A stretch of 41,516 nucleotides of DNA from Methanobacteriota archaeon. Its GTDB lineage: Archaea; Thermoplasmatota; Thermoplasmata; SG8-5; JACRNV01. The stretch spans positions 1 through 41,516 of the forward strand of contig JACRNV010000038.1 of NCBI GenBank assembly GCA_016214785.1. Reading direction: 5' to 3'. Below, one piece after another: positions 25,301 through 40,215 of the stretch. A program made the position numbers and the translations under genes. The notes under the pieces were generated by a model. The model was not told where the DNA came from, ran no database searches, and saw only the letters and a program-made list of their open reading frames with translations. Each line of letters opens with the position of its first letter. Position 1 is the first letter of the stretch.

Positions 25301-28300
25301 ACGTCATCTGCTGGAACGCGCAGGAAGGCATCTTCTGGTACGGCGCGGACGTCGTCGCCATCCTCAGGGACAACAACGTCAGCGCCAACGGCCTTGACGG
25401 TATCTCGCTGAACGGGCTGAACTCCGTCACCCTCAACACAGCCGACTGCACCGGCAATGCAGTCGCGTACAACCGCAGGAACGGCATCTATGCGTATGGC
25501 GGCCTGACGGTTGACATCACGATGGATTCGAACACCAATGGCATAGACTACAACAACCGCAGCGGCCTGTACGCCTATTCCCCCGGCGACATCTACGCCA
25601 CCGTCTCGCAGGACATCGGCTACAACAACTATTCCGGCCTTTACCTCTATGGCAACTCCGTGACCGTGTCGGTCACAAGCTCGCAGATGTCGAGCAACGT
25701 CTTCGCGGGCATATACCTGAGGGGTAGCGACATAGACGCAATCGTTCTCGACAGCGATTTCTACCTCAACGGGTTCGCCGGGGCGTATTTGCAGGGCACC
25801 TACGTCGCGGTCGATATCGAGGATTGCGCGTTCTTCAACAATTCCGTAGGGCTCGATCTGGAGGCTTCGGCATACATCACAGGGGCTGTCGAATCGTGCA
25901 GCGCGGCCTACAACAGCGACACTGGCCTGAACGTCACGGGCGCAGGAGGCATGTCGGTGAGCGGCAACGCGCTCTCGTTCAACCGGAACGCGGGGATATC
26001 CGTGAGGAACTCATCGGGCATCCGGATAGAGCTCAATGTAGTGACCGGCAATGGTTTCGGGGCTAACGGCACGAACAGCAGCGGCATCAGGACGGAGAGC
26101 TCGTTTGTCACATGCCTTGGGAACGACGTAACTGGCAGCCCTGTCGGGATATGGGCGAACACGGGCACGACGGGACTCTTCGAGAACAACTCGATCACGT
26201 CCAATACGTTCGGGGTGCGCGTGGGGAGCTCCCCGACATTCTCATACAACTACATCGCCGACAACGCGCAGTACGGAATGCTCTGCCCAGGGTACAGCCC
26301 GCTGATAAGCGAGAACGCATTGTTCCGCAACATCATCTCGGGAATTTATATCAGCCAGGGCGCCACGCCGTACCTGGAGGGCAACACGTTGCGGAACAAC
26401 GGCTGCGGCGTGATTGTGGCGAACGGCTCGCGGCCCACGATAGCGAACAACGTCATCTCCTACAACTTCCAGGACGGCGTCTCGATAACCAACGGCTCAG
26501 ACGTCACGATAATCAACAACGAGATATTCTACAACATAGGCTACGGGCTGAACTGCTCGAACACCTCGAGGGCCAACTGGTTCGGAGACATCTCGTCCGG
26601 AGGCCATTACGGCTTCGCCAAGATGAACAGCATCGTCATGTACGGCAACCTGACCGTCCTGGGGGGCGGGAGCAGGATAACGCTCGAGGACCTGACGCTG
26701 ACGCTCGGCGCTCGCGCCCAGTGCGACCTTTCGATAACGGTCATCAGCGGCGGCACGCTCGCGATGAACGATGCGAGCGTCGGCACCTTGGCATCCGACA
26801 GGTTTGCCTTCTTCTTCAACGTCTACGGCGCGCTGGAGATGGACTTCGCCAGCGTTGCGAGGCCCTACCAGATATACGCGGCGGATGGGAGCTCCCTCAA
26901 GGTCCTGCGCAGCACGATTTCGGAATCCTACTACGAGGGGATTTTCGCCGACAGTGGCAGCGAGGTCTTCGTGAGCGGGTCCCACTTCTACGATTGCGGG
27001 GACGCGGGCATCTACGCGAACAGCACGCCGATAACAGTCATAGGGACGTACTTCGACCTCAATTACCGCGGGCTCTGGCTCTTCGACGCGCCCGGCATCA
27101 CAAGCGTGCAGGACTGCATCTTCCGCTACAACACCCGCGAGGGGCTGCTGGCCGAATCCTCCGCAGTCGCAGTGAGCGGCTCGACGTTCGAAGGGAACCT
27201 CAGGGGCATGAGGCTGCGCGGTAGCGCAGGCTCGACTCTCGACGGCTGCCACTTCACGGGCAGCGAGGTGGCCGTCGATTCCTTCGGCAGCGCGCTCGAG
27301 GCCAGGACGACGACAATGGAGGGCAACAACGTAGGGTTCTTCGTCTATCAGGGGTCAGTCGCATACGTTGAGAACTGCTCGATGGACGACCTCGTGCAGG
27401 AGTTCTACGTCTGGAACGGCTCGGACGCGCGCACGCTCAACACGACCTTCGACGCAGCGACGCTGGTGTCGGACACGTCCGTCCTTACGGTGCAGTGGTT
27501 CCTGCATGTCGGAGTGCTGACGGCGGGAGGAATGCCGATTGCGGGCGCGGTCATCAACGTGACGGACGGCCTCGGCGCCCCGATAGTGTCCGGCGGGCCG
27601 ACAGGCGCGGACGGCTTCCTGCGCTGGATTGTCTGCACTGGTTATGTCAAGACGGCCGCCGGTGTGGATGGCTCGATGAACCCATGCTCGCTCACGGCCT
27701 TCGACCTCCAGAGCACGGCTTCGAGGATTGTCACGATGGACACGTCCCGAACGGAAATATTCTCGACCAACTATCCGCCGGTATATATTGCAGGCTCTCT
27801 GAGCGACGTCACGCTCAGCGAGGAGGGCGCTATAAACGACGTTTTCGACCTTGATAACTGCTTCGTGGACGAGGGCACTCTCACGTATTCGTGCTGGGGC
27901 TACGATAAGACAGTAGTCACCATCGAGCCGAACGGGTTCTTCGACGTCTCGTCGCCGGCCGAGGACTGGGCCGGCGCGGAGAGCGTCACCTTCAGGGCGA
28001 CCGATTCCTACGGCCTGTACGCCGAGCGCACGATAACCGTAGCGGTCCTCAACCTCAACGACCCGCCGGCGGTATCGTCGACGCCGGCGCTCGGCGCGAC
28101 GCAGGGCGCCCCGTACTATTACGACCTGGACGGGAGCGATCCGGACCTGCCGTACGGCGACCTCATCACGTACTCGCTCCTCGCATCCCCCGCCGGGATG
28201 GGCATTGACGCGGCGACCGGCGCGATAACATGGGTGCCGGGGAGCGCGCAGATTGGCCCGAACCCGGTCACGGTCAACGTCAGTGATTCCGCCGGCGCAT

Positions 28301-31300
28301 GGGCCACGCAGACGTTCATCGTCAGCGTCGCGAACGTGAACGACGCCCCGGGCTTCACGAGCGCGCCGGTCATGGCCGCGACGCAGGGCGCCGCCTATTC
28401 ATACGACGTGGATGCGACAGACCCTGACATCGCATACGGCGACTCGCTAACGTACTCCATCACGACCTTCCCGGCCGGAATGGCCATAGATTCGGCCACC
28501 GGCCTGGTATCGTGGATACCGACAAACGCCCAGGTCGGCCCAAACAGCGTCACGGCCAGGGTAGCGGACAGCGTCGGGGCATCCGCCGTCCAGCAGTTCA
28601 TCATAACAGTCTCGAACGTCAACGACCCGCCCTCCATAACATCCTCTCCAGTGCTCACCGGGACGCAGGGGGCGCCCTACTTCTACGGCGTCAGCGCCTC
28701 CGACCCCGACTCCGGCTACGGCGACACGCTCGCATACTCGCTCCTGACCTCCCCGGCCGGCATGGCAATCAATGCAACGACGGGGCTGGTATCGTGGACC
28801 CCCGGGCCGACGCAGGTCGGGCCGAGCGTCGTAATAGTGAGGGCCGCGGACTCTTCTGGCTCGGCGGCCAGCCAGCAGTTCGTCATCACAGTCTCGAACA
28901 TCAACGACCCGCCGAGCATCACCTCGACGCCTATTCTGGCCGCCACCCAGGGCGCGCCGTACTCGTACGCCGTGACAGCCTCAGACCCCGACACGCCCTA
29001 CGGCGACTCGCTCTCGTTCAGCCTGACGACATTCCCGGCAGGCATGGCAATCGACCCGGCCACGGGCATGATAACATGGACGCCTGGCCCGGCGCAGGTG
29101 GGCGCGGACAGCGTCATCGTGAAGGCCACGGACTCCAGTGGCGCCTCGGCGGTGCAGCAGTTCGTCGTGGCCGTGGCCAACGTCAACGACCCTCCGGCAA
29201 TCGCGTCGTCGCCGCTGCTGGCCGCGACGCAGGGCTCGACATACTACTATGACGTGGACGCGACAGACCCGGATACGCCGTACGGAGACGCGCTGACGTA
29301 CTCGCTGCTGACCTTCCCCGCCGGGATGGCGATAAACGCCACGACCGGGCTGATAACATGGACGCCGGGCGCGGCGCAGGTCGGCCAGAACGCCGTCATA
29401 GTGCGGGTGATGGACACGGCAAGCGCCGCGGCCACGCAGCAGTTCGTCATCACGGTCTCCAACATCAACGACCCGCCGAGCATCACTTCCGCGCCCGTCC
29501 TCACAGCCACGCAGGGCGTTCTATACTCTTACGTAGTGACGGCGACCGATTCGGATGGCGCGTACGGCGACTCGCTCTCCTTCGGCCTCACGACATGCCC
29601 GACTGGGATGTCAATCGACTCGGCCTCTGGGGCAATATCATGGACGCCAGGCAGCGCCCAAATCGGCTCCAACGCCGTAACAGTCAAGGTGACGGACGGG
29701 AGCGGGGCGTTCGCCCTACAGCCGTTCGTCATAACGGTAGCGAACGTCAACGACCCGCCGGCCATGTCGTCATCCCCCACGACGATCGCGGTGCAGGGCG
29801 TCCAGTACTATTACGATGTTGACGCCGCGGATCCCGACACGCCATACGGCGACTTGCTCACATATTCGCTGGTCACATCCCCGGCAGGGATGGGCATCAA
29901 CGCCTCGACCGGCCTGATCTCTTGGGCGCCCGGCGCGGCGCAGGTCGGGCAGCACACGGTCATCGTCAGGGTAGCCGACATCGCAAGCGCCTTCGCGACG
30001 CAGCAGTTCACCGTTACCGTCTCGAATGTCAACGACCCGCCGAGCATCACCTCCGCGGCAATCCTGTCAGCCACCCAAGGCATTTCGTATTCTTACATCG
30101 TGACTGCGACAGACGCAGATACGGCATTCGGCGACCCCCTCTCGTTCAGCCTGACGACATGCCCCGCAGGGATGTCCATCGATTCCGCCTCGGGGGCTAT
30201 ATCCTGGACTCCAACCAGCACACAGATTGGCACCAACAGCGTTACAGTAAGGGTGGCGGACAGTATCGGCGCGTCCGCCCTCCAGCAGTTCGTGGTGACG
30301 GTGGCGAACGTCAACGACCCGCCGTCCATAACCTCTGCGCCTGGGCTCGCGGCTGCGCAGGGAGATCAGTACTTCTACGACGTGGTTGCCTCCGACCCGG
30401 ACAAGCCATACGGCGACACGCTCACGTACTCCCTGACAACTTCCCCGGCAGGGATGGCGATAAACGCGGCGACCGGCCTGATATCGTGGACGCCGGGCTC
30501 CGCGCAGGTCGGCCAGCACACAGTCATAGTACGGGTCGCGGACATGGCAAGCTCTTTCGCGGCGCAGCAGTTCGTAATCACAGTGTCTAACATCAATGAC
30601 CCTCCGGCGATAACCTCGACGCCGGCACTCGCGGCGACTCAGGGCATCCCCTATGCATACGCCGCGAGCGCGACCGACCCGGACACGCCCTACGGCGATA
30701 CCCTATCGTACAGCCTCACCACCTGCCCGGCAGGCATGGCCGTCGATCCCGCAAGCGGCGCCGTCACATGGACGCCGGCGAACTCGCAGGTGGGCGCAAA
30801 CAGCGTCACCCTCAGGGTCGCCGACAGCCATGGCCTCTGCTCGCTGCAGCAATTCACGATTGCGGTAGCCAACGTGAACGACGGGCCAGCGATCTCGTCG
30901 ACCCCAGTGCTAGCTGCGACGCAGGGCGCACTCTACTTCTACGACGTCGAGGCCGCGGACCCCGACACTCCCTACGGCGACGCGCTGACATATTCCCTCA
31001 TAACCTCCCCCGCCGGCATGGCGATAAACGCCGCGACGGGCCTCGTATCCTGGACCCCGGGCCCGTCGCAGGTCGGGCTCAACGCCGTCTCGGTCAACGC
31101 GAGCGACACCGGAGGGAAGTGGTCCGTCCAGCAGTTCGCGGTGAACGTGATGAACGTGAACGACGCGCCCTCCATTGGCTCGTATCCGGCGCTGACGGCA
31201 ACGGCGGGCGCCATGTATTCCTACGCCATCAACGCCACGGATGCGGATACGCCGTACGGCGACTCGCTCACATACAGGCTCACCAGGTATCCCGAGGGCA

Positions 31301-32436
31301 TGGGGATCGATTCCGCGACTGGCCTTGTATACTGGACGCCGACCGTAACCTCCGCTGAGAGCGCGGTCGTCTCCCTCCAGGTAACGGACTCCGGAGGGCT
31401 CTCCGCGGCGCAGACCTTCACCGTGACTGTCTCGGGCATAGACCATGCCCCAAGGATCGCCGGCGTCGGCGTGTCTCCGGGCGAGACCTACGCCAACTCG
31501 ACCCTGACTGCGACTCCGAGCGGCTGGTCCGACGCGGACAACGACACGCCCTCGTACAGATACCAGTGGCTGAGGAACGGCCTGGAGGTCGCGGGCGCGA
31601 CCGGCCAGACCGTATCGGGCATCTTCCAGAAGGGGGACATCATCGCCTGCGAGGTCACTCCGTACGACGGCAGGCTGCCGGGCGCCAGCGTCGTGTCCCT
31701 GGCGGTAACGATTAAAAACACGCCTCCGACCCTGAGGAGCGCATCCATAACGACAATCGCCCCGCGCACGGGCGACGCGCTCGCGGTCGCCCCGCAGGGC
31801 TATGCGGACATCGACGCCGCGGACGGCGCCCCGGCCTATGCGTATCAGTGGCAGAGGTTCGACGCGCCGACGAGCACCTGGGAGAACATAACCGGCGCGA
31901 ACTCCGAGGCCCTCGCCGTCCCGCTCGCAAAGGGCACTGTCGTCCACTGTACCGTCATACCATTCGACGGGACGGGCTATGGCGCGCCCGTGACGACCCA
32001 GAGCGTGACGGTCCAGAACACCGTCGCGACGCTCACCTCGGAGAAGGCCGCGCCTGAGTCCGCCGAGGAAAAGACGACCTTCAGGTTCTCGGTCATCTAC
32101 AGCGACGCGGACGGCGACGCCCCGCTCCTGGCGCAGGTCGTCATCGACGGCACGCCGTACGACATGAACCGCGGCGCGGGCGGCTCGGACAGGACGGGCG
32201 TTCTCTACACTTACGAGACCTCGGCGCTATCCGTCGGCACGCACAGCGTCTACTACACGTCCGCGGACGAGGCCGGCTCTTTGGCGATAACGGGCTCGTC
32301 GGTCCTGACGGTGAGGGCGATACCGTCCGCGCCGGCGGAGCCCTTCCCGACCCTGCTTGTATTCGGCGCCATCGGCATCGCGCTGGCCATAATCCTGCTG
32401 ATAGTCATCGCCGTATACCTCTTCCGGAAGAAGTAG
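19396..32436 (+). CDS. Giant multidomain surface protein, 4346 residues, membrane-anchored
   Basis: Domain order as seen: signal peptide (~1-39, cleaved near AQA); low-complexity Ala/Pro/Gly linker (40-165); DNRLRE-type beta domain (~166-357); two Ig-like domains (~358-580); an Fn3-like domain interrupted by three 77-residue repeats (~580-905); right-handed parallel beta-helix (~911-1235); two nested jelly-roll (MAM/choice-of-anchor-J-like) domains (~1239-1570); a second long beta-helix (~1570-2690); a regulatory-like beta domain (~2695-2790); a cadherin-like domain (~2792-2887); twelve 94-residue He_PIG/cadherin-like repeats (2888-4015); two Ig-like domains (~4016-4215); a stalk; one membrane helix (~4318-4342) and FRKK. 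The protein must extend far from the cell and probably binds glycans or other cells. No catalytic residues can be assigned. The uninterrupted 13-kb frame, flanked by a protease gene and an archaeosortase gene, argues that it is intact. Length is extreme even for archaeal surface proteins. Confidence 0.95.
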   Translation: MKNVGVSGGRGSLDVRVFSATALVLVMIASALAAPVQAQESAPAASEEGAARLQGGTNAVGPVANGIMPAALGDEGRPGASPVRDVPSVPAFSPIDAASGEPSLASIMPGERAVSAEIARQSSAVTVPRKFEGSRLPLASSQMERAPGHGTGAPPPSQNGGGGNRPLVTLTLQPGPTDGKDCCIVSSLPSANSGASQTMDVCALTTYYKTLLQFDLSSIPPGSRVTAATLGLYQSSQLNTAGVTVGVYRLTRSWTEGTGTYTSTGDGATWNTYNGVSAWTTPGGDYAATQYASVVQTTSGWYTFDVRQLFDEWTYGTYANFGLALVGVSGSSNNWKEYWSSDYVTGPTFRPYVTITYTIDALPPVSSAGASSQYAWTATPIIVPFTATDNLNLGSISLYYRYSSDNLSWSGWLLSSSQVLSGASASGTFSFFAPWGSRYYEFYTRATDAVGNVEGAKSAAEGEIIYDSSPPFSSAQPLLPTYTLAPFDIMYFAQDNLALSSVTLYYRFSPDGGATIPWTPWTANYTISISGTIVIANLPFYAPNGKGYYQVSTQASDIAGWVEPLHAFADASTLYDPGGAFPPTDLTIWNAGDDLTIGWEASSTPDVIRYDIFKATDPSLFDWSAPYASVPSGPVAAVLNETVYGPATGGEMGPWFLMNVPVIDAAVYRENSGAWSLLVGSADYTLDTDTGELAMLAPLMAGDSIFVSYNYSVQVMNEYVFGPAGGGESGPFYLAGTPVYNATILLENSGVWIPLTEGVDYILIPSIGELWMLFPLAANDNLFANYNMSFTISNELAYGPAIGGETGDFNLANSVINDCTLYLESPGGWTQLVDGVNYNLANPGGVLTIFFELKPGETLYAYYNYTTPSTGSFTFTDFDAANDWVPDYYSVRGVDSYGDPSTNTNYVCNLDWWVETFQEHAGLSVSMGGNIYITGTGNLTLHDSDVEALNLTQSAGGTLFMDPSALVLYGDLWVEGVAVFANTAIGLPNGDVIVTNTGNLTTYICLISVQNIFEWFGGIIFLEQTGLSLGGDFRTSGLAALIGPNTVLTADNIYVMFSGAMTVLESSISVSGFAVWPSGTLYTDASDIILDGDFWLDGTAAMVDTTLTMDVTTNGEHVIQVNASGSLTLQYTVVTNGTADANYLFMVYGALVMTGCNMTNCGIDQPPGLWASGLYIAGTAVIDSSAISDCADGIAVDETAAAIINNCAISDCVAGIYAVNNTNLALSNNVVSGNGVNWMGANTTLVNDTMESGTSQWTTNTQTIGSPSVILMNDDVEGGTNGWTTIAYSGASLWHIATLNSHSPTHSWWCGLDSTGNYNNGQRVNNAILSPIMDTSSLAWPWMSIWENYNTELGWDYCMVGVSTNGGTSWNTLASRSGNSGGWVKTNWNVTAYKSSTFRIRFYFDTGDAALNSYPGWFIDDIMLNSTGSSVSYKFAQTTSTSHSPTTSWTDSPTGNYPDGANIWLQIAAPIDLRWPTEATLSYWMKYQTEFNNDVAVLEISTSGGASWMTIKSYSGTSPGYPGSFIYDTVNLNAYVGTPNFLFRFHMISNTNGIVGDGFYVDDVLLVARQKNIKGGGIILAGTTVATLQDNIVRDNQNWGVFSDGTASAAWIANTYAEGRNNPFRIMGGILVNGGACSFDNSSVWTTDVIVAPGAQMEYADSNSTMTARYVEVYGTLWVNSSKWLVNSTYDGECYILVVGAMHVYGCIIDSVLPSGGNFIYYVDSSAVFSFVYSELHHCGWDGIYWSDLGLYINTDNALIDHSTLSYNFINAVLYESSPVVQDCIIQYSSGSASVPGIGLLTVSTGSPIIDNNYINNCSDWGIYAFYGSTPVVTRNNLSWNGAGAIFNASSAGLMDNNTVTRNKGLGILCFDFSAPILNNNLIIYNNATGIRVDSDSTPTITGNYIAQQQVGIELVNYSGGTIWNNTIRNNSLSGVSSTYSAPAILGNNVIYNARGVYIENCTPDISDNVICWNAQEGIFWYGADVVAILRDNNVSANGLDGISLNGLNSVTLNTADCTGNAVAYNRRNGIYAYGGLTVDITMDSNTNGIDYNNRSGLYAYSPGDIYATVSQDIGYNNYSGLYLYGNSVTVSVTSSQMSSNVFAGIYLRGSDIDAIVLDSDFYLNGFAGAYLQGTYVAVDIEDCAFFNNSVGLDLEASAYITGAVESCSAAYNSDTGLNVTGAGGMSVSGNALSFNRNAGISVRNSSGIRIELNVVTGNGFGANGTNSSGIRTESSFVTCLGNDVTGSPVGIWANTGTTGLFENNSITSNTFGVRVGSSPTFSYNYIADNAQYGMLCPGYSPLISENALFRNIISGIYISQGATPYLEGNTLRNNGCGVIVANGSRPTIANNVISYNFQDGVSITNGSDVTIINNEIFYNIGYGLNCSNTSRANWFGDISSGGHYGFAKMNSIVMYGNLTVLGGGSRITLEDLTLTLGARAQCDLSITVISGGTLAMNDASVGTLASDRFAFFFNVYGALEMDFASVARPYQIYAADGSSLKVLRSTISESYYEGIFADSGSEVFVSGSHFYDCGDAGIYANSTPITVIGTYFDLNYRGLWLFDAPGITSVQDCIFRYNTREGLLAESSAVAVSGSTFEGNLRGMRLRGSAGSTLDGCHFTGSEVAVDSFGSALEARTTTMEGNNVGFFVYQGSVAYVENCSMDDLVQEFYVWNGSDARTLNTTFDAATLVSDTSVLTVQWFLHVGVLTAGGMPIAGAVINVTDGLGAPIVSGGPTGADGFLRWIVCTGYVKTAAGVDGSMNPCSLTAFDLQSTASRIVTMDTSRTEIFSTNYPPVYIAGSLSDVTLSEEGAINDVFDLDNCFVDEGTLTYSCWGYDKTVVTIEPNGFFDVSSPAEDWAGAESVTFRATDSYGLYAERTITVAVLNLNDPPAVSSTPALGATQGAPYYYDLDGSDPDLPYGDLITYSLLASPAGMGIDAATGAITWVPGSAQIGPNPVTVNVSDSAGAWATQTFIVSVANVNDAPGFTSAPVMAATQGAAYSYDVDATDPDIAYGDSLTYSITTFPAGMAIDSATGLVSWIPTNAQVGPNSVTARVADSVGASAVQQFIITVSNVNDPPSITSSPVLTGTQGAPYFYGVSASDPDSGYGDTLAYSLLTSPAGMAINATTGLVSWTPGPTQVGPSVVIVRAADSSGSAASQQFVITVSNINDPPSITSTPILAATQGAPYSYAVTASDPDTPYGDSLSFSLTTFPAGMAIDPATGMITWTPGPAQVGADSVIVKATDSSGASAVQQFVVAVANVNDPPAIASSPLLAATQGSTYYYDVDATDPDTPYGDALTYSLLTFPAGMAINATTGLITWTPGAAQVGQNAVIVRVMDTASAAATQQFVITVSNINDPPSITSAPVLTATQGVLYSYVVTATDSDGAYGDSLSFGLTTCPTGMSIDSASGAISWTPGSAQIGSNAVTVKVTDGSGAFALQPFVITVANVNDPPAMSSSPTTIAVQGVQYYYDVDAADPDTPYGDLLTYSLVTSPAGMGINASTGLISWAPGAAQVGQHTVIVRVADIASAFATQQFTVTVSNVNDPPSITSAAILSATQGISYSYIVTATDADTAFGDPLSFSLTTCPAGMSIDSASGAISWTPTSTQIGTNSVTVRVADSIGASALQQFVVTVANVNDPPSITSAPGLAAAQGDQYFYDVVASDPDKPYGDTLTYSLTTSPAGMAINAATGLISWTPGSAQVGQHTVIVRVADMASSFAAQQFVITVSNINDPPAITSTPALAATQGIPYAYAASATDPDTPYGDTLSYSLTTCPAGMAVDPASGAVTWTPANSQVGANSVTLRVADSHGLCSLQQFTIAVANVNDGPAISSTPVLAATQGALYFYDVEAADPDTPYGDALTYSLITSPAGMAINAATGLVSWTPGPSQVGLNAVSVNASDTGGKWSVQQFAVNVMNVNDAPSIGSYPALTATAGAMYSYAINATDADTPYGDSLTYRLTRYPEGMGIDSATGLVYWTPTVTSAESAVVSLQVTDSGGLSAAQTFTVTVSGIDHAPRIAGVGVSPGETYANSTLTATPSGWSDADNDTPSYRYQWLRNGLEVAGATGQTVSGIFQKGDIIACEVTPYDGRLPGASVVSLAVTIKNTPPTLRSASITTIAPRTGDALAVAPQGYADIDAADGAPAYAYQWQRFDAPTSTWENITGANSEALAVPLAKGTVVHCTVIPFDGTGYGAPVTTQSVTVQNTVATLTSEKAAPESAEEKTTFRFSVIYSDADGDAPLLAQVVIDGTPYDMNRGAGGSDRTGVLYTYETSALSVGTHSVYYTSADEAGSLAITGSSVLTVRAIPSAPAEPFPTLLVFGAIGIALAIILLIVIAVYLFRKK
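21313..22005 (+). repeat. Three tandem 231-bp (77-residue) repeats inside an Fn3-like domain
   Basis: Repeat starts are 21313, 21544 and 21775, an exact 231-bp period. Each unit reads NExxYGPAxGGExGPFxL, an aromatic strand with a Trp, GVDYxL, GELxML and NYNxS. The Fn3-like strands before (WEASSTPDVIRYDIFKATD) and after (FDAANDWVPDYYSVRGVD) belong together, so the array sits within one domain. Confidence 0.85.
23110..24110 (+). other. Nested pair of jelly-roll (MAM / choice-of-anchor-J-like) domains inside the beta-helix
   Basis: A domain begins as NDTMESGTSQWTTNT and breaks off. A complete second copy follows (DDVEGGTNGWTT through GWFIDDIMLN, ~23215-23670), and the first then resumes with FAQTTSTSHSPTTSWTDS and ends at GFYVDDVLLVA. 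The matching SHSPTxSW motifs in both copies show the register. The beta-helix resumes afterwards. Confidence 0.75.
28057..31440 (+). repeat. Twelve tandem 282-bp (94-residue) He_PIG/cadherin-like repeats
   Basis: Each unit starts with NDPP/NDAP, contains ATQGxxYxYxVxAxDPDxPYGD, SLTTxPAGMxI, TGxIxWTP, and ends VxNV. The ATQG codon positions (28099, 28381, 28663, 28945, 29227, 29509, 29791, 30073, 30355, 30637, 30919, 31201) give an exact 282-bp step every time. Odd and even units from number 4 onward fall into two types, so the real unit of duplication was probably a 564-bp pair. Asp-rich loops suggest calcium binding, as in cadherin-like folds. Confidence 0.95.
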
Positions 32437-32532: not shown

Positions 32533-33690
32533 TCACTTGGGAGGCTTGCCAGCCAACGATTTACCACAAGCAGGGCATCTATCGCCTTTCAGGCAAGACT
32601 TGTGGCAGAGCGCCCCGCACTCGCACCTCTCGGCGGGCGCGTCCTGGCTGAACATCCCGCCGCAGAGGACACAGGTCGACGGCTTCCGGCGGGGCCTCTT
32701 CCCCTCCCCTCCCCTGGGCTCCAGCACGCCGAGGTACTTGAACATCAGCCCCCAGAAGACGAGCACCCAGGTCATGAAGATGAATATGCCGAGGTTCGCG
32801 TGCGTCCACAGGAGCGCGTCTATGCCGTAGGTATGCCCGACCCACACGATGATGGCCATGCGCAGGACGTTGGCGAACCAGGCCATTACGACGCCCAGCA
32901 GGAGGAGCAGCGCCACCTTCCTGTCAAACTTTCTGTACTCGACCGACACGAACGCCAGGAAGGCCGAAACGAAAATCGTCACCGAGTAGAGCCCGGAGCA
33001 CGAGAGCCCGATAGAGACGGGCTGGTAGGCGCCGCCAGTGGCATACTCTATCGCGTTCAGCCTGCTGGTCCAATCCTGTACGAGGGGGTTAGGGTGGAGG
33101 TTGGGGTATATCCAGGTCTGCACACCGAAGAGGTTCAATATGCCGGACGTCGGGACAGTAAGCAAGTAGTAGATGAACGGGCTGTTCGTGTCCTCCTCAC
33201 GAAGGCCTCCATACACGATGGCGTAGGCCGTTGTGGGAACGACGAGGATTAGGAAAAGAAATACCGAGAAAAGGAGTGCGAAATCGCGCTCGACCGCGTA
33301 CTTGCCCGGTACGAAGTTGTAAGCGAAGAGGATGGCGCCCATTAAAAGGATGACAGTATCGTTGCTCCCTAGTGTGGTATATGAGCTTAAATATATATTG
33401 TAGGCAACGTCAAGCGCGATTATCCCTATCCCCAAGAAAGGCAGCGCCGGGCGCAGCCTCCCGCCGAATGTAAACACGTTGATGAGCCGCGAGGAGAGCG
33501 TGCCCTTCCTCTCCTCAGTTTCTTCTCTCCCCTGTCCAAGGCCGAAACCCCATGCCAGCAGCCCCAGGCCGACTGCGATGAGCGGTATGGAGACTAGCCG
33601 GTTGTTGTGGCTCAGCAGCAAAAGGATGTCCAGGCCGGCGAAGAGAAGGACGAACCCGACCAATACCTTGGCGCGGTCGAGAGCCTTCAT
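32533..33690 (-). CDS. Archaeosortase/exosortase-family membrane protein with C-terminal RING/PHD-like zinc finger
   Basis: Archaeosortases are membrane transpeptidases that cut C-terminal sorting tails of surface proteins. The catalytic triad of the family is visible: Cys231 in GLSCSGLYS, Arg277 in FANVLRMAIIV, His297 in LWTHANLGIF, each at a membrane helix end in the usual spacing. About eight helices span residues 8-320. After a basic linker (325-337) a 45-residue cysteine-rich domain follows: Cys340-x2-Cys343-x12-Cys356-x-Cys358-x4-His363-x2-Cys366-x5-Cys372-x2-Cys375. That spacing fits a two-zinc RING/PHD-like treble clef, probably cytoplasmic. I do not know this fusion from characterised archaeosortases. 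Its ATG overlaps the stop of the epimerase gene (ATGA), so the two form an operon. The gene converges on the giant surface-protein gene, a likely substrate; the subfamily could not be assigned. Confidence 0.88.
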   Translation of the reverse strand: MKALDRAKVLVGFVLLFAGLDILLLLSHNNRLVSIPLIAVGLGLLAWGFGLGQGREETEERKGTLSSRLINVFTFGGRLRPALPFLGIGIIALDVAYNIYLSSYTTLGSNDTVILLMGAILFAYNFVPGKYAVERDFALLFSVFLFLILVVPTTAYAIVYGGLREEDTNSPFIYYLLTVPTSGILNLFGVQTWIYPNLHPNPLVQDWTSRLNAIEYATGGAYQPVSIGLSCSGLYSVTIFVSAFLAFVSVEYRKFDRKVALLLLLGVVMAWFANVLRMAIIVWVGHTYGIDALLWTHANLGIFIFMTWVLVFWGLMFKYLGVLEPRGGEGKRPRRKPSTCVLCGGMFSQDAPAERCECGALCHKSCLKGDRCPACGKSLAGKPPK

Positions 33691-34586
33691 CCCCTGATGA
33701 GCTCCTTCAATCCCCGGTCCAGGTCGACGGCCGGCTCATAGCCCATCACTTCCCTGGCCTTGCTGATGTCGGCGTAGCTCTGCATGATGTCGCTCGGCCT
33801 CGCGGGCTCGTAGATTGGGGTGACCTTCTTTCCGGCGAGCGCGGCCAGCTTGTCGGCGAGCTCGTTGATTGAGACGGGCTTGCCAGTGCCGCCGTTGAAG
33901 ACGTGGCCGACCGAGTACCTGCTCGTGGCCGCGAGGATTATCATCTGCACGACGTCCATGGCGCTGATGAAGTCCCTGGTCTGCGAGCCGTCGCCGTAGA
34001 TTATCGGCGGCTTCCCCTCCTTCAGCCGGCTCAGGAACATGGAGATGACTCCCGAGTACGGGTTGTCGGGGTCCTGCCTTGGGCTGTATATATTGAACGG
34101 CCTTATAACGACCACGGGAAGCTCGTAGGTGTGCTGGAAGGCGAAGGCGTAGCGCTCCGCCGCCAGCTTTGACGCGCCGTAAGGGCTTATCGGGCTGGAC
34201 GGATGCCCCTCGTCTATCGGTAGGTAGCGCGGGTTGCCAAAGACCGCCGCTGAGCTTATGTACACGAACCTGCCGACGTCCTTCTCTGCCGCTGCTTTGA
34301 GGAGGTTCAGGGTGCCGATGACGTTGGTGTTCGCGTCGAATATCGGGTCCTTCACCGACTCGGTGACGCTCACCTGCGCGGCCGCGTGCACGACCACGTC
34401 CACGTCGGACATGAGCTTGTGCGCCATGGCCGGGTCGCGGATGTCGCCGAGGATGGTGTGCCTGTCGACGTCCTTGATGCCCGAGCTGCGCAGGTCCAGG
34501 CCGAGGACCTTGTCCCCCTTGCGCGCGAGCTCCTCGACGAGGTACGAGCCGAGCTGGCCGGAGCTGCCGGTGACGAGGTATTTCAT
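33687..34586 (-). CDS. NAD-dependent nucleotide-sugar epimerase/dehydratase
   Basis: An extended short-chain dehydrogenase of 299 residues. NAD-binding GSSGQLG (7-13), VVHAAAQVSVTESVKDP, Ser in YISSAAVFG, and Tyr136/Lys140 in SPYGASKLAAE are present. The C-terminal half has RPFNIYSPRQDPDNPYSG and GDGSQTRDFI, typical of UDP-glucose 4-epimerase and related 4-epimerases or 4,6-dehydratases. It differs clearly from the epimerase at 16306 (Gly-Ser-Ser-Gly instead of Gly-Gly-Ala-Gly), so the two are not recent duplicates. It overlaps the archaeosortase start by ATGA. Bacterial exosortases are likewise often found with exopolysaccharide genes, so a link between protein sorting and glycan supply is plausible. 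Confidence 0.92.
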   Translation of the reverse strand: MKYLVTGSSGQLGSYLVEELARKGDKVLGLDLRSSGIKDVDRHTILGDIRDPAMAHKLMSDVDVVVHAAAQVSVTESVKDPIFDANTNVIGTLNLLKAAAEKDVGRFVYISSAAVFGNPRYLPIDEGHPSSPISPYGASKLAAERYAFAFQHTYELPVVVIRPFNIYSPRQDPDNPYSGVISMFLSRLKEGKPPIIYGDGSQTRDFISAMDVVQMIILAATSRYSVGHVFNGGTGKPVSINELADKLAALAGKKVTPIYEPARPSDIMQSYADISKAREVMGYEPAVDLDRGLKELIRG

Positions 34587-34707: not shown

Positions 34708-36138
34708 ATGACGCCTTCAAGGGAGAATAGGTCGTTCCCGGCGTACAGTGTTAGAAGGGGTGTTGCTATTGGGCTGTGCATTCTTTTCTTTATTAGCTGT
34801 ATTAGTGGGGCATTGGCAACTCCGGTGCATAACAGACCTGGGATCCCAATCGGAGCACCTAGCGCAACATGGTCATGGGGCAATCTTACAATAAAAAAGA
34901 GCCCATCCCCCCCGCGAATAGCAGCCCCATTCGTTCTTCAAACAATACCTATAAACGGCCAATCGGCTGTTCTTCCTAACCAACCATTTTGCATAAACTT
35001 CTCTGGGCCGATGAATACTAGTGCCGGTGCTTGCACCATCGAACCTTATGTCGGGGTTTCTGGTTCATGGGAATGGAATGCAGACGGCACTTGGTACAAT
35101 TATACAGGCGTTAGATGGATTGTTACCAGGCAGTATTGGGTCAACTTGAGCGGATTCAAGGACACCACAGGCATTGATTTAGCTGGGCAAATGTCCTTCA
35201 CGTTTACATCGGGAGGCATCTCATATCCCCCTGCATGCGCGTCGAATCTTCAAGTGGAAAGGAGCACCCCGAATGTCGTTTTACGATGGACGAACATGTC
35301 ATTTGACCCAGACGAATGGCACATTTATCGTTCTAACAATAAACTCGCAGCCTTTCCCACAGCCTGGACGATGGTTTCAATCCCTGGAATTCTAAGAAAT
35401 TGGACGCACAGCAACGCTTATGGCGATGGAAACACCTGGTATTACCTCGTGAGAGGTTATTTCGCCACGATGGAAAACGGAAATTCCACGATGGGCGTGA
35501 AGGCGGTCATCAACACGACATACAACGCCCCCCCGCAAACCAACATCTGGTGGTTATCCCTCCCCTATAATTCGATGTACAAGAAAGCCAGCGACATCGT
35601 GCGCGACCTGGAGGGAGGGAACGGAATCAGCTCCCCGTCGGTAAAGATAGGCCTGGTCGGGCTGTGGACTCCTAGCTTCCAGGCCGCGAAGGCATACGTC
35701 TACGACTCCGCGTTCGGCGAATGGTGGGGCGACGATTTCGCCATCGCCCCCGGCTCAGGGATATGCGTGGATGTGAAAGCCCCATTCTCCTGGGTGATGA
35801 ACGGTACTGATACAACCTCGCAATTATCTTTCACAGTGAACCCGATAAAAACCAACAATTGGTTGCTCTCAATTCCATTTACCTCAAGATATATTACAGC
35901 TTCAGATATCGTTCGAGCCATTGAGGGCGGAGATGGAATAACCTCACCATCAACTAAGATTGACGCTGTAGGCAAGTGGAACCACGGAGGCCAGGCCGTT
36001 AATGTCTACTACTATGATATCGGCTTCTGTGATTGGGAAGGTTATGATGTCACCTTCAACCCAGGCGACGGTATTTATCTTGTTATTATATCAAACTTCA
36101 CGTGGACGCCGCAGCTCATCACCCCGGAGATACCGTGA
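34708..36138 (+). CDS. Secreted multidomain protein with two copies of a 105-residue module
   Basis: A signal peptide occupies residues ~16-37 (Arg-Arg, then a hydrophobic stretch, then ALA). Then come an SbsA-like Ig domain (Big_5 type, FCINFSGPMNTSAG through LAGQMSFTF, ~85-170), an Fn3-like domain (NLQVERSTPNVVLRWTN, ~180-270), and two tandem copies of a module starting at 35524 and 35839. The module reads WWLSLPYNS, KASDIVRDLEGG, SPSVKI, YDSAFGEWWGDDFAI, PGSGI. There is no C-terminal membrane helix, so it is released or held non-covalently. Many Asn-X-Ser/Thr sequons suit the nearby glycosylation genes. The next gene starts inside its stop codon. Function is not recognisable. The codon use is more AT-rich than in the giant gene. 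Confidence 0.88.
   Translation: MTPSRENRSFPAYSVRRGVAIGLCILFFISCISGALATPVHNRPGIPIGAPSATWSWGNLTIKKSPSPPRIAAPFVLQTIPINGQSAVLPNQPFCINFSGPMNTSAGACTIEPYVGVSGSWEWNADGTWYNYTGVRWIVTRQYWVNLSGFKDTTGIDLAGQMSFTFTSGGISYPPACASNLQVERSTPNVVLRWTNMSFDPDEWHIYRSNNKLAAFPTAWTMVSIPGILRNWTHSNAYGDGNTWYYLVRGYFATMENGNSTMGVKAVINTTYNAPPQTNIWWLSLPYNSMYKKASDIVRDLEGGNGISSPSVKIGLVGLWTPSFQAAKAYVYDSAFGEWWGDDFAIAPGSGICVDVKAPFSWVMNGTDTTSQLSFTVNPIKTNNWLLSIPFTSRYITASDIVRAIEGGDGITSPSTKIDAVGKWNHGGQAVNVYYYDIGFCDWEGYDVTFNPGDGIYLVIISNFTWTPQLITPEIP
35524..36135 (+). repeat. Two tandem 315-bp modules (copies 1 and 2 of the 105-residue domain)
   Basis: Units start at Asn codons 35524 and 35839, a 315-bp step. The second is slightly shortened at the C-terminus. 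The same step is found in the next gene. Conserved residues include Ser-Leu-Pro-Tyr/Ile-Pro-Phe, Ala-Ser-Asp-Ile-Val, Glu-Gly-Gly, Ser-Pro-Ser-x-Lys-Ile, and Pro-Gly-x-Gly. Confidence 0.85.
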
Positions 36139-39100
36139 TGAGAGTTAAATCCTTGTTATGTTGTTGCATTTTGATATCGATGGCGATGGCATCTCTGAGC
36201 CTCCAGTCGTTTGCAGCGGATGCACCATCAGACTCTTCGAATGGCAACGTGCATGTGCTGACAGACCAAATATACGATGCGACGAACGACCGTGCATTCA
36301 CTGCAAGTACCGGCCCGGACGCCACACCTAACACAGGCGACGATTATGCGAATGGCTTCATGTACGCATGGAACATCGGCAGCTCGGCTAGAAATGGATG
36401 GGGGTTCATAGGCTCGGGGAACGCCACACCGACAGTTGGATTCGCCGGCTGGGCGCCTCCTGGATATAACGTACCCCCGATGGACATCCCTGGGACATGG
36501 AGGAACAGGAGTGATTTAGGAGCGCCATGGCTCGCGAGGAATCAGGGCGATTTCGGCAGCATTTGGGCGGAATGGATCCCTGGGGACTATGTCGTGCTAT
36601 GCACCGAAGTCCTGTGCACTAACTCATCCGATGGGCAGAACTACACAGCGATATACGAGGGAGCGATGAGCACCGCTGGGTCCGACAACATTGGGGTAAA
36701 TGTCACCCTTTGGAAAATTCCTACTCCGCAGTTCTGGAGCTCCGGTGGATTAATCGGGGTTGCCAATCAGTCTGCGCCCGATCAAGGTATTGAGCATTCA
36801 TGGATGGACTATGGTTACGGCGTATGGACGAGCATGAGCCCTATTACTCCAGCAAATCCCGGGGCATTCCAGGCAAATATGACGAAGAACTCTAATAGCA
36901 CGTGGCAGTGGCTGGACCCAACATGGCTGCCTGGGAAATACTATGCACTGAGGCAGAGATGGTGCTGGAACAGCTCTTCTACAATAGGCTTTTTTACATA
37001 TGGTTATTCACAGTGCACGAAAAACCCAATAATGCCGCCTCCATCGTATGCCACCGGTCCAGTTTCAAACGGGACGAATAACGCGACTCCTACCATTACA
37101 TATACCAACAATACTGCGCCTGCCTATGTTGATATATATTATACGAGTAATGGCGGTACGACCTGGGTTCTTTGGGGGACGGACAATCCAGCGGACGGGT
37201 CTTGGCCAGCGGGAAGCTCGCTACCAGATGGCACTTACTATTGGAATGCCAAGGATCCTTCGGAAGCAGTCCCCTCTGGAGCCGGTGACATCGAGGCTGG
37301 GCCTTATGTTATTGAAACCGTCCAACCTACAGTTACATACACTAATCCATTCGACGGACAGGATAGCGTTTCGACAACCCAGCCTTATCAAATTTATTTC
37401 TCAGAACCGATGAATAAAAGCGCAGGTGTGTGTACAATTACCTATAGTCCATCTCCGCCTACAATTGGGGGAACATGGGCGTGGAGTCCGGATGGCAGAT
37501 GGTACAATTATACGGGTGTGACGTGGAATTCGTTATCTTATTATTGGATTAATCTCACAGGTTTCAAAGATTTAGCGGGAAATAGTCTCGCGGGTGATAC
37601 TTCGTTTATCTTCGCTACACTTTACATCAATCCGCCGGACACGGCAATCAATACAATCACGCCGAACCCCTATACTGGAACTCTTCCAGATGAAGCAACT
37701 TTATACGCTACAGGTACAGACAATGCCACTGGTGGAAAACCTATCGTGGGTATTGCATATCGTATCGATAGGAATGACGACGGCGACTTCATGGACGTGG
37801 GTGAGGGGTGGATGAATATGACACCCCTTCTCGGCAATGGGACGAGTTGGGCTCAATACAGTACTTTGATAGACCTTCACAATTGCTCCATTGCCACGCC
37901 AAACATCGAGGCGAGGGCCGGGGCAGGGAGCCTAATAGTGAAATGGGATATCACGCCAGCATTCGTTACGTATACAATCATCGATACTACAACGCCGACC
38001 GTGAGCTTCGTACCACCGACTCCTGTGAATGAGTCCAGCATGTCGAACGGAACCCGTCCGATTAGGATAACCGCAGAGGATTTCCGCGATGTCTGGACCT
38101 CGGGATATGCCCGGATAACCGCTTACAATCAGACACATTACAATTTTTTCCCGGAAAACACTACGATGAATTTCATCGGCTGGACAAACGGTTCGAATGT
38201 CGATACGTTTGAATACAACATAACCGGGATGCAAATGGGCGATAACATCACATATTGGGTATTTGTGTCCGATGGGACTCAGGTAACGGTTCGATGGCAG
38301 TATTACTTCATCCCTGCGGGATATTGGCCTTGCCACGCCGATAATCTTTGGGTCGAAAAAGCGAATCCTAACATTATAATCCATTGGCAAAATGTCACAG
38401 ACCCCGTCAGCTGGCACATATATTATTCTAATGATAAACTAGCGACATTCCCGGGGAACTGGACGATGACCTCAATCGGTGGCACGGCAAGGACATGGAC
38501 GCACGTTGGAGCTTGCACCGATGGTCTGATCTGGTATTATATTGTCCGAGCATTCACGACGATGGAAGATGATAACTCGACGATGGGCGTGAAGGCGCAA
38601 CTCGGGTTTACAATGAACGCAGCTCCGAACACGAACAATATGTTCTTCTCATTGCCATACAACTGCCAGTACAAGAAAGCGAGCGATATCGTTAAGGATA
38701 TCGAAGGTGGTGACGGGGTCAACTCGCCATCAACGAAGATATCTTTGGTTGGACAGTGGTCACAAGCAGGACAGGCAGGCATCACGTACTTCTACGAACC
38801 ACTCTTCCTGGACTGGGAGGGGACGGACTTCGCCATCGCACCCGGCGACGGATTGTACTTCGGTATAATATCGACCTTCAACTGGGTGATCAATGGTACA
38901 GACACATCCTCGCTGCTGACGTTCACTCTGAACGCAGCACCGACGACGAACAACATGTTCTTTTCCCTGCCATACGCATCGACATGTACGAGGGCCAGTG
39001 ACATAGTCAAGGCAATCGAGGGCGGGGATGGGGTGAACTCGCCGTCTACTAAGATTTCCCTGATTGGGCTGTGGTCGCATCCAGGACAGTCCAGCACTAC

Positions 39101-39236
39101 GTACTTCTACGATCCATACTTCCTGGACTGGGAGGGAACGGACTTCCCTATAATCCCTGGCGATGGCTTGTACCTAGGCATAATATCAAACTTCACATGG
39201 ATCCCTTCTCTAATCACTCCGAGGGTTACCAATTAG
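36138..39236 (+). CDS. Secreted multidomain protein, paralogue of the preceding gene, two copies of the 105-residue module
   Basis: The ATG at 36138 shares its A with the upstream stop (TGATG) and starts a clear signal peptide with three consecutive Cys (~1-28, ending SFAADA). A ~270-residue N-terminal region has no family I recognise. It is followed by an Ig-like segment, an SbsA-like Ig domain (YQIYFSEPMNKSAG through LAGDTSFIF) and a calcium-type DRNDDGDFMD segment. A further Ig-like domain, an Fn3-like domain (NLWVEKANPNIIIHWQN) and two 105-residue modules at 38616 and 38931 complete the 1032 residues. The final Ig, Fn3 and module arrangement repeats that of the upstream gene, so one arose by duplication of the other and gained or lost the N-terminal half. 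No membrane anchor. Its stop lies within the left arm of an inverted repeat. Confidence 0.88.
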   Translation: MRVKSLLCCCILISMAMASLSLQSFAADAPSDSSNGNVHVLTDQIYDATNDRAFTASTGPDATPNTGDDYANGFMYAWNIGSSARNGWGFIGSGNATPTVGFAGWAPPGYNVPPMDIPGTWRNRSDLGAPWLARNQGDFGSIWAEWIPGDYVVLCTEVLCTNSSDGQNYTAIYEGAMSTAGSDNIGVNVTLWKIPTPQFWSSGGLIGVANQSAPDQGIEHSWMDYGYGVWTSMSPITPANPGAFQANMTKNSNSTWQWLDPTWLPGKYYALRQRWCWNSSSTIGFFTYGYSQCTKNPIMPPPSYATGPVSNGTNNATPTITYTNNTAPAYVDIYYTSNGGTTWVLWGTDNPADGSWPAGSSLPDGTYYWNAKDPSEAVPSGAGDIEAGPYVIETVQPTVTYTNPFDGQDSVSTTQPYQIYFSEPMNKSAGVCTITYSPSPPTIGGTWAWSPDGRWYNYTGVTWNSLSYYWINLTGFKDLAGNSLAGDTSFIFATLYINPPDTAINTITPNPYTGTLPDEATLYATGTDNATGGKPIVGIAYRIDRNDDGDFMDVGEGWMNMTPLLGNGTSWAQYSTLIDLHNCSIATPNIEARAGAGSLIVKWDITPAFVTYTIIDTTTPTVSFVPPTPVNESSMSNGTRPIRITAEDFRDVWTSGYARITAYNQTHYNFFPENTTMNFIGWTNGSNVDTFEYNITGMQMGDNITYWVFVSDGTQVTVRWQYYFIPAGYWPCHADNLWVEKANPNIIIHWQNVTDPVSWHIYYSNDKLATFPGNWTMTSIGGTARTWTHVGACTDGLIWYYIVRAFTTMEDDNSTMGVKAQLGFTMNAAPNTNNMFFSLPYNCQYKKASDIVKDIEGGDGVNSPSTKISLVGQWSQAGQAGITYFYEPLFLDWEGTDFAIAPGDGLYFGIISTFNWVINGTDTSSLLTFTLNAAPTTNNMFFSLPYASTCTRASDIVKAIEGGDGVNSPSTKISLIGLWSHPGQSSTTYFYDPYFLDWEGTDFPIIPGDGLYLGIISNFTWIPSLITPRVTN
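38616..39233 (+). repeat. Two tandem 315-bp modules (copies 3 and 4 of the 105-residue domain)
   Basis: Units start at 38616 and 38931, the same 315-bp step as in the upstream gene. Copies 3 and 4 are very close to each other (NMFFSLPY, KASDIVKDIEGGDGVNSPS, FLDWEGTDF, PGDGLY), which indicates recent duplication or gene conversion. Confidence 0.88.
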
Positions 39237-39336
39237 TAAGGTCTCGTTTGTAGCCTATATGAAGTCTCGCTAACGCAACAGAACCCTACCCCGTCGGATG
39301 ACCGACGGCCTACAAATTAGAATCTACTAATTGGTA
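39227..39336. repeat. Inverted-repeat element between secreted protein and PRPP synthetase
   Basis: TACCAATTAGTA (39227-39238) is repeated exactly in inverted form at 39325-39336. The similarity continues inward with gaps (TCT, then TTTGTAG), giving imperfect arms of about 27 bp. Inside lies a perfect hairpin, CCGTCGG-ATGA-CCGACGG (39291-39308). An alternative fold pairs CCCTACC (39284-39290) with GGTAGGG (39333-39339) and encloses that hairpin plus AATTAG/CTAATT (39315-39332), a three-way junction. It could be a terminator, a structured leader, or a small mobile-element remnant. The stop codon of one gene and the start of the next fall in the two arms. Confidence 0.6.
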
Positions 39337-40215
39337 GGGAAAAGCTACTCATTAGTAACGAAAGTCGTCGCTGGCTCCGCGTCCCAGAGGCTCGGGAAAG
39401 GCCTCTCCGAGGCATTGAAGTGCGATCTCGTCCAGATTGAGTCCAAGCGCTTCCCGGACGGCGAGGGCTACGTGCGCATTCTAAGCGACGTCAGCGGCGA
39501 GACCGTGGCCATAGTCCAGAACACCTACCCGGACCAAAACATGGTCGAGCTCTTTCTTCTGCAGGACGCCACGCGCAGGGCGGGCGCCAAGCGCATAATC
39601 ACAGTCGTCCCGTACTTCGGCTACGCGCGCCAGGACAAGCAGTTCCAGCCCGGAGAGGCCATCAGCGCCTCCGCGCTCGCGAAGCTCATAGAGGCCCACA
39701 GCGACGCGACAATAACCGTCGACCTGCACAACCTCAACACCCTCGCCTCGTTCTCCAAGCCCGTGGCCAACGCCAGCGTCATGAAGGCCACAGGGGAGTT
39801 CCTGAAGGGGAAGGCCGATGCCATCCTCTCGCCGGACAAGGGCTCGATAGGGCGCGCGAGGGAGGCCGCTCGGGTCGCGGGGGTGCAGTTCGACCACATC
39901 GAGAAGAAGCGCCTTGACGGAAGCACCGTCCAGATGACCCCAAAGGAGCTGAACGTCCGGGGGAAGCGCGTGGCCATCGTGGACGACATCATCGCCACCG
40001 GGGGGACCATGATGAAGGCCGCGGAGCAGCTGAGGGCACAGGGGGCGACCCGCGTCATTGCCGTCTGCACCCATGGCCTCTTCACCGGGGGTGCGCTCGA
40101 CAAGCTCAGGCAGAGCTTTGACGAAGTGCATGCCTGCGACACCCTGGAATCCCCTGCGAGCACCATCTCGGCAGCCGGTTCCATCGCCGCTGAAATATAT
40201 AAATTTCGGTCTTGA
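39331..40215 (+). CDS. prs: Ribose-phosphate pyrophosphokinase (PRPP synthetase)
   Basis: The enzyme makes PRPP from ribose-5-phosphate and ATP for nucleotide, His and Trp synthesis in the cytosol. Motifs: RFPDGEGYVRI (40-50), the YFGYARQDKQF flexible-loop region (95-105), VDLHN (130-134) and the PRPP loop VDDIIATGGT (217-226). The 294-residue length matches the short archaeal type. The start is uncertain. Homology begins at KVVAGSASQ, and the codon just before it is ACG (39358), where most relatives have ATG. The only usual start in frame upstream is TTG 39331, which lies in the right arm of the inverted repeat and adds nine residues. GC content rises sharply compared with the two preceding genes. 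Confidence 0.95.
   Translation: MVGKSYSLVTKVVAGSASQRLGKGLSEALKCDLVQIESKRFPDGEGYVRILSDVSGETVAIVQNTYPDQNMVELFLLQDATRRAGAKRIITVVPYFGYARQDKQFQPGEAISASALAKLIEAHSDATITVDLHNLNTLASFSKPVANASVMKATGEFLKGKADAILSPDKGSIGRAREAARVAGVQFDHIEKKRLDGSTVQMTPKELNVRGKRVAIVDDIIATGGTMMKAAEQLRAQGATRVIAVCTHGLFTGGALDKLRQSFDEVHACDTLESPASTISAAGSIAAEIYKFRS

Follow-up and report, generated by a model that had tools for sequence, protein, structure and literature searches.

The window analyzed here (the whole stretch of 41,516 nucleotides, from a genome of the archaeal class Thermoplasmata) encodes a membrane enzyme of the archaeosortase type with a RING-like zinc finger at its C-terminus. In the reading that we favor, at a probability of about 0.6, this enzyme is an archaeosortase for PEF-CTERM proteins and binds a partner through its cytosolic finger; for the finger, a role in docking is more likely than one as a ubiquitin ligase. 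The relevant features are listed in Table 1.

Table 1. Features of the fusion gene and its neighbors, in window positions.
Feature	Position	Strand	Remarks
Archaeosortase/RING-like finger fusion gene	32533..33690	-	385 aa; orthologous fusions in other genomes
Predicted membrane catalytic domain, residues 1-325	32716..33690	-	Eight predicted TM helices, N-in/C-in
Putative catalytic Cys231 codon	32998..33000	-	Invariant in 30 homologues
Putative catalytic Arg277 codon	32860..32862	-	Invariant in 30 homologues
Putative catalytic His297 codon	32800..32802	-	Invariant in 30 homologues
Basic linker, predicted cytoplasmic, residues 321-339	32674..32730	-	6 K/R, 2 D/E
RING-like C4HC3 finger, residues 340-375	32566..32673	-	Invariant ligands; profile and fold matches
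NAD-dependent sugar epimerase/dehydratase gene	33687..34586	-	PF01370, 199.8 bits
PRPP synthetase homologue	39331..40215	+	Recurrent opposite-strand neighbor

The fusion ORF starts with ATG and has no internal stop, and its recurrence in 25 genomes rules out a misread frame. The membrane part matches TIGR04178 over residues 225-315 (51.5 bits, cut-off 23) and Pfam Exosortase_EpsH (PF09721; 34.8 bits, cut-off 25.7). By these profiles the product is an archaeosortase of the exosortase/archaeosortase family, as the first-pass annotation had proposed; the Cys/Arg/His triad that it had named lies at the residues given and is kept in 30 of 30 aligned archaeosortases. The best-scoring named subfamily is ArtC (TIGR03762), but the score of 58.3 bits is below the cut-off of 100 and membership was rejected; the enzyme is under the cut-off of every named archaeosortase subfamily.

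Helices of the full-length structure model (poor overall, pLDDT 53, and otherwise uninformative) and charge counts predict eight TM segments and place both termini inside. There are 18 lysines and arginines on the predicted inner loops and the tail preceding the finger vs. 3 on the outer loops. Since both ends would be inside, the triad is expected near the outer membrane face and the finger on the cytosolic side, a placement drawn from the positive-inside rule and the helices of this weak model. The basic linker and the cytoplasmic C-terminal tail of the earlier annotation are thus both retained, the tail as a predicted feature.

The finger has the ligand pattern C340-x2-C343-x12-C356-x-C358-x4-H363-x2-C366-x5-C372-x2-C375, exactly the eight-ligand spacing read from the sequence in the first pass; a ninth cysteine (C362), directly before His363, is not conserved. 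Alignments show no variation at any of the eight ligand positions, either among six order-level homologues or across 18 class-level fingers. The ligand spacing, one proline and one glycine are fixed across the deep divergence of these 18 fingers, and outside the ligands only about a third of positions are identical among homologues. A profile built from the six fingers matches the RING of gp78/AMFR (E = 2e-5) and other RING E3s, and a profile of the 18 has AMFR chains as its sole matches below 0.01. The core blocks of an AlphaFold (AF2) model of the finger, built from only two sequences, have pLDDT values of 81-86, and a Foldseek search of the PDB with this model places RINGs in nearly all top positions (probabilities up to 0.99; best E 0.013, none <0.001). 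The window finger is over the cut-off of no Pfam family, scoring 16.4 bits against zf-RING_2 (cut-off 27.3) and 15.6 bits against Prok-RING_1 (PF14446; cut-off 29.1), the latter being matched weakly by 12 of the 18 fingers (best E 1.3e-6). The proposed RING-type identity is supported by the invariant ligands and the RING-like profile and predicted fold. A RING-like treble clef with two zinc sites is the structure that the model suggests; a single-zinc ribbon is disfavored by the eight invariant ligands and by the RINGs returned in the fold search. In RING E3s, a tryptophan on a helix between ligands 6 and 7 contacts the E2 (PMC5654768). These ligands are only 5-7 residues apart in all fingers examined, which means that the helix with its E2-contacting tryptophan is absent from every one of them.

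We surveyed 400 genomes of the class, calling archaeosortases at E<=1e-10, and found the enzyme in 59. The finger fusion occurs in 25 of these (24 complete copies and one in which the contig ends within the finger), from about nine family-level groups; the search of other Thermoplasmata suggested in the first pass thus does turn up the fusion. Every one of the 24 complete copies retains the eight ligands. The family of the source genome consists of that genome alone; in its order 6 of 13 genomes have a match, and all six matches carry the finger. The usual pattern is C-x2-C-x12-C-x-C-x4-H-x2-C-x(5-7)-C-x2-C, with x11 and x2 replacing x12 and x in one genome (G013). Neither chance nor a chimeric contig can account for a finger conserved among genomes that diverged so deeply. 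Fingerless archaeosortases are found in families f5, f6, f9, f14 and f17. A tree built from the membrane part puts most enzymes with the finger into two groups, one comprising the order of the source genome and the other f4/f16/f19/f23/f24/f27; one old gain followed by losses and two separate gains both fit. None of the archaeosortases sampled outside the class bears the finger. Those of two genomes from other lineages of the phylum (G414, L182; G422, L191) have zinc ribbons of another kind, one or two of them, on the same tail, which suggests that a cytosolic zinc module was probably acquired there more than once. No archaeosortase or exosortase bearing a finger of this kind is described in the portion of the open-licence literature covered. 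PADLOC gave no matches.

Copies of the finger are not restricted to archaeosortases: 16 of 20 genomes have 1-6 copies. The hosts include TM proteins with DUF835, repeat proteins, SHOCT-like zinc-ribbon proteins and an OppD-like protein (all names except DUF835 are readings of the sequences rather than database assignments). Judged from these sequences, the finger is a reused module common to the class. The first-pass annotation had considered that the cysteine domain might be an unrelated single-zinc ribbon found at random on membrane proteins of the lineage; presence on several other proteins is borne out, but the architectures are fixed and recurring, and a single-zinc ribbon is, as noted, disfavored.

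The fusion locus sits among glycosyltransferase, sugar-nucleotide and surface-glycan genes. The epimerase gene is directly upstream, its stop overlapping the fusion start by 4 bases, and this adjacency is conserved within the order. The PRPP synthetase gene is found beside 15 fused loci vs. 0 of 11 unfused loci. In family f3, the gene directly downstream of the fusion encodes a Ras/Rab-like small GTPase that has a C-terminal extension (L020, 592-1473; L021, 548-1477; L022, 300-1181). Near the archaeosortase in the window (34708-39236), and beside the fingerless relatives (L016/L018), there are genes for secreted proteins in which an ASDIV-x-x-IEG domain is repeated. Convergent with the archaeosortase gene is a gene (19396-32436) for a 4346-residue surface protein with a C-terminal TM helix and roughly twelve cadherin- or Ig-like repeats. 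This giant neighbor was rejected as a PEF-CTERM substrate; its tail scores 14.7 bits and has no PEF motif.

ArtC enzymes pair with the PEF-CTERM signal. The source genome, G010, G011 and G025 each encode PEF-CTERM (TIGR03024) tails that exceed the cut-off, and most of the other genomes searched have evident PEF tails with scores close to it. In the source genome the tail on contig C27 scores 27.5 bits (cut-off 23), and further PEF tails occur on C11 and C41. The fusion enzyme most likely serves PEF-CTERM proteins, a pairing made by co-occurrence only because the enzyme is under every named subfamily cut-off. The candidate substrates are giant bitopic surface proteins (L202/L203 on C27, L201 on C41, L204 on C11), encoded by a 6792-residue frame on C27 and ORFs of 1702 (C41) and 1765 (C11) residues. 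In each, an N-terminal arm assigned to the cytosol leads into a single TM helix, followed by a large ectodomain that ends in a PEF tail; the arms contain zinc-ribbon arrays or TNG repeats. With one TM helix and a PEF-CTERM tail, both ends of such a protein would be tied to the membrane once it is processed. Similarly long cytosolic N-terminal arms, often zinc-ribbon arrays, precede the first TM helix in most PEF-CTERM ORFs from the rest of the fused genomes. Arms are also found, in a small sample, on PEF-CTERM proteins of the fingerless genomes G023, G026 and G040, some of them with TNG repeats, and in fingerless family f9 a protein with both a signal peptide and a PEF-like tail is encoded next to the sortase.

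The first-pass annotation had also suggested a tie to a ubiquitin-like route, an idea that can be tested because the source genome encodes an E1/Ubl/E2/JAB module. The genes for Ubl, E2 and JAB form a compact row (L087 on G000:C40, 5469 to about 6800), with a dedicated E1 on a separate contig (G000:C67:45354-46127). The E2 (PF00179, 49.8 bits) has the HPN motif and the catalytic cysteine, a 78-residue Ubl ending in GGQ lies just upstream of it, and the JAB peptidase is just downstream. E1, Ubl, E2 and JAB are close together in G035 as well; we found no paper on this module of the class in the open-licence literature. Over the 400 genomes E2 occurs in 121, and its frequency in fused genomes (9 of 25) does not differ significantly from that in the others (112 of 375; p = 0.51). 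Among the 24 fused genomes searched for a dedicated E1, it is present in exactly the nine that are E2-positive, and both E1 and E2 are missing from the remaining 15; the absence thus concerns the whole module.

These distributions bear on a rival reading in which the finger, like gp78, HRD1 and other membrane E3s, is an active E3 RING and works with E1, Ubl and E2 at the membrane to mark the sortase, its substrates or proteins that failed to be exported. The gp78/AMFR RING is the best PDB profile match, the machinery is encoded in the source genome, and both loop contacts (C-x-[ILV]-C and C-P-x-C) are present in 9 of 9 fused genomes with E2 vs. 10 of 15 without, a difference of p = 0.12. However, there is no association of the fusion with E2, genomes with fingerless archaeosortases have E2 more often (22 of 32), and the short C6-C7 spacing leaves no room for the tryptophan-bearing helix. 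As the finger persists without the E1/Ubl/E2 module, ligase activity cannot be its shared role, and we reject both that function and the suggested ubiquitin-like route in this sense; an E3 model for the finger is improbable overall. In the nine E2-bearing fused genomes alone, the source genome included, the finger may have a ligase role.

A regulatory or structural cap, in which the finger is a cytosolic zinc or redox sensor or stabilizes the last helix and has no specific partner, is unlikely, though less so than an E3. Zinc modules are common in the lineage, and the different zinc ribbons on the same tail elsewhere in the phylum suggest that the exact fold may not matter. Against this, the spacing, the proline and the glycine of the finger are fixed over deep divergence, and the finger also occurs on soluble proteins and on other membrane proteins; together, the fixed features and the reuse suggest a shared interaction surface. 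We give very little credence to a passive tail domain drawn from a lineage-wide pool and of little present function: many proteins of the class bear the module, and it is missing from several archaeosortase lineages, but the eight ligands are intact in every complete copy while the rest of the finger has diverged so far.

Recruitment of a partner, one of the roles put forward in the first pass, remains the best proposal. The working model for ArtA, as presented in the portion of PMC7157517 used here, is C-terminal processing and lipid attachment. By analogy, Cys231/Arg277/His297 would cut the sorting signal of exported surface proteins at the outer face, and the cut proteins would be passed to lipid. 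The substrates would be PEF-CTERM proteins, including the giant bitopic ones with long cytosolic N-terminal arms. As a protein-docking module, the finger would keep the sortase next to a partner in the cytosol or the membrane, for which the candidates are the cytosolic arms of the substrates, the export or glycosylation machinery, or a hub common to finger-bearing proteins. The families that manage without a finger speak against docking, and, given that fingerless genomes also have cytosolic arms, docking to arms alone does not explain the distribution of the finger. A more specific version, in which the finger reads the zinc-ribbon or repeat arms of bitopic PEF-CTERM substrates and may tag stalled ones where E1/Ubl/E2 is present, is doubtful, only slightly less so than the E3 model. 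If true, the sortase would read a protein at its cytosolic end and cut it at the remote end outside the cell.

To our knowledge, little is established about what positions archaeosortases in the cell, and a conserved cytosolic interaction domain, as proposed here, would offer a direct handle for a partner search. That a membrane enzyme retains a RING-like fold where the genome has no such ubiquitin-like machinery also bears on the roles of RING-like fingers apart from ubiquitin transfer.

Among known systems, the RING E3s gp78/AMFR, Arkadia and RNF165 resemble the finger in profile and predicted fold, and their C-x-[ILV]-C and C-P-x-C contacts are mostly kept in it; the finger differs in its C4HC3 order, in lacking the intervening helix and tryptophan, and in having no dependence on a genomic E2. 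In a small RING protein of Caldiarchaeum (PMC5654768), the third and fourth ligands are likewise displaced by two residues, and there is an extra cysteine. Prok-RING_1 is matched weakly by most of the class-level fingers, but the window finger is below its cut-off. Haloferax volcanii ArtA likewise has an active-site cysteine, but it acts on a PGF-CTERM signal, and the portion of PMC7157517 used here describes no zinc finger. The ArtC/PEF-CTERM system provides the best-scoring subfamily for the enzyme and the type of tail found in the source genome and its relatives; the fusion enzyme differs from ArtC in its sub-threshold score and in the cytosolic finger predicted past the last helix, and most of its candidate substrates are bitopic, with cytosolic N-terminal arms.
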